From: Gammaproteobacteria bacterium
GTDB taxonomy: Bacteria > Pseudomonadota > Gammaproteobacteria > Pseudomonadales > Litorivicinaceae
Reading direction: 5' to 3'
Assembly (NCBI GenBank): GCA_024640985.1
Contig: JAHEDY010000011.1
Coordinates: 1-64,000 of the forward strand
Length of the DNA stretch: 64,000 nucleotides
Positions 1-387 of the stretch are shown here, one piece after another. The translations under genes and the position numbers were made by a program. The notes beneath the pieces were generated by a model. It saw nothing but the letters and a program-made list of their open reading frames with translations, was not told where the DNA came from and ran no database searches. Every line of letters begins with the position of its first letter. Position 1 is the first letter of the stretch.

Positions 1-235
1 TGAGAAGGTGTGATGCAGGGACATCTAAGTCTTTGATGCGTAGCTTCAACCAGTAGTCTTCTAGCTTGGCTAAGACAGCTTTGGAAGCCTGTTGAGCCTG
101 ACTAGGTGACTTGGTTCTAAGGCAGAGAATGATGCGTTGCTTTGAGTAATAAGAACGTACGTCATTAGGTACTTGTTTAGAGAAATAGAACACACCATCT
201 TTGCGATAAGTGTACTTAGGATTTGTATACTGCAT
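1..235 (-). CDS. Site-specific integrase / tyrosine recombinase, N-terminal fragment (runs off the left edge)
   Basis: Manual minus-strand translation from ATG at 235: MQYTNPKYTYRKDGVFYFSKQVPNDVRSYYSKQRIILCLRTKSPSQAQQASKAVLAKLEDYWLKLRIKDLDVPASHLL. The pattern (Y-x-R-x-G-x-F-Y-F-x-x-x-V-P-x-D...) is typical of phage-type integrase N-termini. It is open to the window edge, so absent from the ORF track. It lies next to a tRNA 3' end. Confidence 0.7.
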   Translation of the reverse strand, partial: MQYTNPKYTYRKDGVFYFSKQVPNDVRSYYSKQRIILCLRTKSPSQAQQASKAVLAKLEDYWLKLRIKDLDVPASHLL

Positions 236-310
236 TGTCTACCACCATCAGAGTCTGAGTAGGTTTGTGTAGACATATGAATGACTTAGGTGTGCCTAAG
301 GGTGGGGCAA

Positions 311-387
311 TGGTGTCCCGAACAGGAATCGAACCTGTGACCTGCCGCTTAGGAGGCGGCCGCTCTATCCTACTGAGCTACCGGGAC
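311..387 (-). tRNA. tRNA-Arg (anticodon CCT)
   Basis: Reverse complement GTCCCGGTAGCTCAGTAGGATAGAGCGGCCGCCTCCTAAGCGGCAGGTCACAGGTTCGATTCCTGTTCGGGACACCA gives a full cloverleaf. Anticodon loop CTCCTAA; CCA is encoded. Confidence 0.95.

Follow-up and report, generated by a model that had tools for sequence, protein, structure and literature searches.

A cut integrase gene beside tRNA-Arg(CCT) leads to a family of integrative elements with a second, mirrored attachment site

The window (the whole 64,000-nucleotide stretch of DNA that was analysed, bases 1-64000 of contig C12) opens with part of an integrase-like gene beside a tRNA gene, which raises the question of what kind of element, if any, lies at this chromosomal site. 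Because the window starts at base 1 of its contig, its left edge is the true contig end, and only 310 bp of any such element are visible (Table 1). A sequence-only reading had described an integrase-like frame that starts at position 235 on the minus strand, 75 bp from the CCA end of a tRNA-Arg on the same strand, and runs off the left edge; ARAGORN, the open frame and a Pfam match to DUF6538 bear this description out. The frame begins with ATG and continues for 78 codons with no stop up to the window edge, and its 78 amino acids match DUF6538 (PF20172) over residues 8-66 with an E value of 5.8e-17. They are also 99% identical to the intact 377-amino-acid integrase of HIMB30, so the frame is the start of a real gene and no chance open reading frame. 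The genome of the window (1.63 Mb in 44 contigs) groups with HIMB30 and uncultured Litoricola; the remainder of the integrase gene and the middle of the element are absent from its 44 contigs. Searching IMG/VR with the 78 amino acids gave no matches, and searching it with an integrase profile gave three contigs, one of them with a 100% inverted repeat. Another contig of the same genome (G000:C22:1-239, L089) also starts inside a DUF6538-type integrase gene, adjoining tRNA-Phe, and is probably the start of a second element belonging to a related tRNA-Leu-type branch.

Table 1. Features at the left edge of the window
Feature	Positions	Strand	Basis
tRNA-Arg(CCT), target gene, with the attachment site at its 3' end	311..387	minus	ARAGORN prediction; relatives with and without an insert there
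att core CCTGTTCGGGACACCA, 3' end of the tRNA	311..326	minus	Direct repeat (16/16) closing G002:C100 by the distal flank; identical 16 bp in the inverted internal site of G019
Left arm (L), the integrase leader, 75 bp from core to start codon	236..310	minus	Can be aligned among relatives at other tRNAs; final bases ...GGTGGTAGACAATG
Arm-type site GTAGACA, paired with the inverted copy at 236-242	269..275	plus	Motif location
Arm-type site GTAGACA directly adjoining the integrase start codon	236..242	minus	Motif location
Integrase, codons 1-78 with the N-terminal DUF6538 domain, interrupted by the contig end	2..235	minus	Open frame, Pfam match, identity to HIMB30

The proposal that a genomic island starts here and extends to the left is supported by empty sites in five relatives and by a distal copy of the core in a sister genome. 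In G001, HIMB30, G003, G010 and G020, host genes follow the tRNA-Arg directly with no insert. The empty site had been expected between the tRNA-Arg and ccmA, which is the wrong interval: ccmA is on the 5' side of the tRNA, and the element is on the 3' side, where relatives carry small lipoprotein, hemN-like and RNase J-like genes, and where the five relatives are indeed empty. The predicted direct repeat of the tRNA 3' end has only chance-level matches in the genome of the window itself but is found at 16/16 by the same flank in the sister genome G002 (94% identical). There the tRNA-bearing contig begins exactly at the tRNA 3' end, and the distal-flank contig C100 ends in CCTGTTCGGGACACCA, next to flanking sequence that matches contig C20 of the window's genome. 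Contig C20 is the expected distal flank, aligning with the flank of G001 from 1.1 kb past the tRNA; its first 100 bp (C20:1-100) resemble the right end of the HIMB30 element (GGTCTATGGA...) without a clear core and are probably the end of the element. The element of the window is probably small (that of HIMB30 is 3.6 kb). The integrase gene is absent from this locus in several relatives, and it is not a fixture there. The start of the window thus appears to lie in the attL of a tRNA-inserted element, and the finding as first written was correct, if by itself ordinary.

The gene might instead be a broken fragment left behind at a site that no longer holds a mobile element, as G012 and G019 have decayed integrase copies at the same tRNA-Arg(CCT), and G018 and G004 have them at tRNA-Gly. 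Those copies contain stops and deletions, whereas all 78 of the 78 visible codons of the window copy are open and nearly identical to the intact HIMB30 gene, and repeats frequently end the contigs of intact family members around this point. A mere remnant is accordingly improbable.

The full-length relatives of the integrase, that of HIMB30 included, combine the N-terminal DUF6538 domain with a Phage_integrase domain (PF00589). Absence of the recombinase catalytic residues had been named as a refutation of the island reading; R230, K262, H325, R328 and Y360 are invariant in these relatives, with Trp351 in place of the third histidine, and the window itself covers only the N-terminal 78 amino acids. 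Close relatives adjoin tRNA-Phe, tRNA-Gly(TCC), tRNA-Arg(CCT), tRNA-Arg(CCG) and tRNA-Leu genes, usually about 60-100 bp behind the CCA and with a related leader: the family switches tRNA targets. The element of HIMB30 has ten copies of GTAGACA, all of them in its left (L) and right (R) arms, and nearly all aligned R arms have two GTAGACC-type sites about 12 bp apart. Two integrases of the family (L071 and L036) are about 94% identical as far as YGDGY, just past the catalytic tyrosine, and unrelated thereafter, a break that is the junction of exchanged modules.

What departs from an ordinary island is a second attachment site. Intact elements have the order tRNA-core-L-[A]-L'-core'-R'-[B]-R-core-host DNA, in which primes denote inverted copies, half A (the integrase gene, sometimes with cargo) lies between mirrored left arms, and half B lies between mirrored right arms. 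Two complete R-core-L sites result, one formed at the junction of the circle and the other internal and inverted. In HIMB30, the inverted repeat of core plus L is 102 bp long (97%) and its second copy is located before a glutathione-transferase-like gene; the inverted repeat of R is 248 bp long (100%), with its second copy preceding the direct core (+3624) at the right end. Two elements in the good assembly of G220 have the same order, with inverted repeats of 80-82 bp (100%) and 247-262 bp (96-99%), as has the single-contig genome G799. On the closed megaplasmid of Ruegeria TM1040, the element at tRNA-Phe has inverted repeats of 85 bp and 1148 bp, both at 100%, and R and R' of G947 are identical over 3183 bp. 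Inverted core plus L was found in about 31 of the elements surveyed, although in a few (G005 and G755 among them) the repeat comprises the leader portion alone; R and R' are also resolved in seven of them (HIMB30, TM1040, two in G220, G947, G799b and G799c). The hosts are Litoricola-type bacteria, another family of the same order, one other proteobacterial family and Ruegeria TM1040.

No matching inverted copy was seen in G021, G018, G012, L040, G1074 and G840C1; most such elements are truncated at contig ends, decayed or hybrid, but L040, G1074 and G840C1 are not accounted for in this way. The element of G021 at tRNA-Leu(TAA) (L081) is a hybrid in which the left-end core is that of tRNA-Leu, while the internal inverted core is tRNA-Phe-like and is accompanied by a second integrase start. 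No inverted core copy was found in ten ordinary tRNA or tmRNA islands, four of them from E. coli K-12. One of these controls, KplE1/CPS-53 at argW (tRNA-Arg(CCU)), resembles the DUF6538 elements, as do other tyrosine-integrase islands and prophages at tRNA genes, in having the integrase gene by attL at the tRNA 3' end and a direct core at the far end; unlike them, CPS-53 and the other nine controls have no internal inverted site. Tycheposons are a candidate affiliation suggested by the literature. In the full-text literature, inverted or paired att sites were found only in engineered constructs and in CTXphi; within this partial coverage, which is no proof of novelty, no earlier description of a second, mirrored insertion site in such elements was found.

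The copy in the window might nevertheless be an ordinary tRNA island, bounded by a single attL/attR pair and lacking the mirrored site. Only attL is visible there (the assembly contains no second site, half B or distal att of this element), the direct repeat in G002 is plain, and some relatives have no matching inverted copy. This is quite unlikely, given that both the nearest intact element as judged by the integrase (HIMB30) and the element of G019 at the same tRNA have inverted core plus L (93% in G019), as do about 31 members of the family. The window itself has two features of the class, a DUF6538 integrase and GTAGACA arm sites in the leader. On the strength of the integrase identity to HIMB30, these arm sites and the decayed mirrored element of G019, the window is best explained, with a probability of roughly 0.7, as the attL of a small DUF6538-integrase element at tRNA-Arg(CCT) that belongs to the mirrored-site class, in which the integrase recombines the inverted sites; the mostly unassembled remainder of this copy would then have the same mirrored layout. 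In the decayed element of G019 (L041:7690-9400), host flanking sequence directly follows the inverted core, with no right arm or half B, a shape that was perhaps produced by deletion at a palindrome.

With a mirror-image copy of the insertion site, portions of the element in relatives can flip, and comparison of sequences among and within elements provides several signs that this happens. In about 20 of 24 elements (at tRNA-Phe, -Leu, -Arg, -Thr and -Ser), the internal core is the same as the final 14-22 bp of the tRNA at which the element sits. In most pairs, L and L' have 0-1 differences within an element and 8-31 between related elements, the pair HIMB30/G015 being an exception with 3-4 differences within and 5-9 between. 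G799b and G799c are sister elements at two tRNA-Ser genes of one closed genome. Their B halves run in opposite directions (5,090 bp, 89.6%), while half A and the flank keep the same direction (89.8%); in each, R matches R' perfectly over more than 320 bp outward from the core, and all differences lie beyond. The frequent breaks of draft contigs shortly behind the integrase gene are a further sign. What these alignments show is the presence of two inverted sites with their arms, the agreement of internal core and tRNA, the concerted change of the copies and the inversion of half B between sisters. In one element of G220 (G220a), the distal core in attR (TTCTGGGCACCA, L152:11600-11640) is unlike the occupied tRNA-Arg(TCG), and the internal core matches that tRNA, which looks like a target switch in which the internal site was converted later.

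The inverted arms could also be repeats whose similarity is maintained by RecA-dependent recombination and gene conversion, with flips that are passive and play no role in the life of the element. At 729-3183 bp, R and R' have the length that homologous recombination needs, and since exchange confined to the core would not make the arms alike, this process probably contributes and may even suffice. Passive repeats are nonetheless a somewhat unlikely account of the whole pattern: L and L', mostly 77-127 bp long, stay identical as well, sequence agreement peaks next to the core, the internal core changes with the target tRNA, and distant hosts share the layout, even where half A consists of the integrase gene only. 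The integrase, rather than homologous recombination, would be the likelier agent of flipping.

The model preferred here is that a DUF6538-type tyrosine integrase inserts the element at the 3' end of tRNA-Arg(CCT), uses the core for excision and integration of the circle, and also recombines the inverted sites, which would flip half B (and half A) and would hand on the occupied tRNA's core to the internal copy. The excised circle would have the topology of the yeast 2-micron plasmid, a circle with a tyrosine recombinase (Flp) and two inverted sites (FRT) inside inverted repeats that exists as two isomers (PMC3147054), and site-specific flipping during replication could amplify it. The DUF6538 elements differ from the 2-micron plasmid in that they are bacterial, integrate into tRNA genes and encode an integrase with an extra N-terminal DUF6538 domain; amplification is a role that flipping may serve here by analogy. 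That the family as a whole forms a class with two complete inverted attachment sites, whose own integrase converts the circle between isomers in the manner of Flp, thereby amplifying it and shuffling its halves, and whose internal site records the occupied tRNA, is put forward tentatively, as a possibility with the odds somewhat against it.

The orientation of half A bears on how free this flipping is. The integrase gene is on the tRNA side of half A in 25 of the 26 elements with an identified tRNA, which counts against free inversion of half A, as free inversion would give half; the sole exception, L036, is on a short contig of a metagenome-assembled genome and could be a misassembly. An outward sigma-70 promoter in the R arm, which would make the integrase-first order self-stabilising, was considered as its cause and found no support (combined p 0.59).

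A fixed order would follow if a single fixed strand were used, as in CTXphi of Vibrio cholerae, a circular element in which two inversely oriented attachment sequences, attP1 and attP2, are used by tyrosine recombinases and pair in single-stranded DNA (PMC4246890). A single-stranded circle of the DUF6538 elements would fold into a duplex R-core-L site with halves A and B as loops, and the integrase would join it to the tRNA gene by a single strand exchange. This precedent, the self-complementarity of R-core-L around the circle, its preservation in each element and the integrase-first order all agree with such a folded site. It remains unlikely, because each double-stranded copy looks complete (core plus arm sites), unlike the sites of CTXphi, which are 90 bp apart, non-functional as double strands and used by the host XerC/XerD; because no gene for single-strand replication or transfer is common to the family; and because half B flips relative to half A, so that a signal choosing the strand would have to be in half A. 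The DUF6538 elements, by comparison, have their own integrase and sites separated by whole gene modules, and recombination of double-stranded inverted sites by that integrase is still the favoured explanation.

The family reached from the window is a new variety of integrative element. Searches for such elements, and the placing of their boundaries, assume a single direct attL/attR pair; this family departs from that assumption, and mirrored sites change how excision, inversion and target switching are to be read. The second, inverted site also breaks short-read assemblies, such that draft contigs often end within a few hundred bp behind the integrase gene. If the integrase drives the isomers, the family would be a bacterial counterpart of the 2-micron principle of amplification.

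Across the several proteobacterial families in which these elements occur, their cargo is diverse. Half A contains the integrase gene alone or with one to three genes, such as a glutathione-transferase-like gene (HIMB30), LysE (G015), or von-Willebrand-A, PP2C and kinase genes (G590). About 20 codons of an integrase start are in frame with a cargo protein in L082 (G017, 2512-1229) and L083 (G005, 2548-1241), counted from the tRNA end; in G017, the fusion partner is an alginate lyase. The genes of half B serve replication, defence or other purposes: it encodes a type I restriction-modification system in TM1040, a 1,075-amino-acid protein without a Pfam match and a TPR protein in G799b and G799c (L211, L212), and RTX-repeat, collagen-like or restriction genes in others.

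Half B of four elements encodes a protein with the motifs E-x-D-F..L-R and L-P-x-H-D, for which a fold search placed family-A polymerases at the top, weakly (E value 5e-3). It was rejected as a core gene of the class, being carried by only these four, and it is not tied to the mirrored layout, as it is also present in islands with ordinary sites. Two such islands (L166 and L167) resemble the DUF6538 elements in their position at a tRNA 3' end, their tyrosine integrase (more distant) and their homologous polymerase-like gene (phrog_4756), and differ from them in having direct repeats only and no inverted site. Small family-A-polymerase-like proteins of this kind (phrog_4756), all previously unannotated, are encoded at L152:8424-9668, L083:15311-16552, L036:135-1712 and L167:7955-9178.
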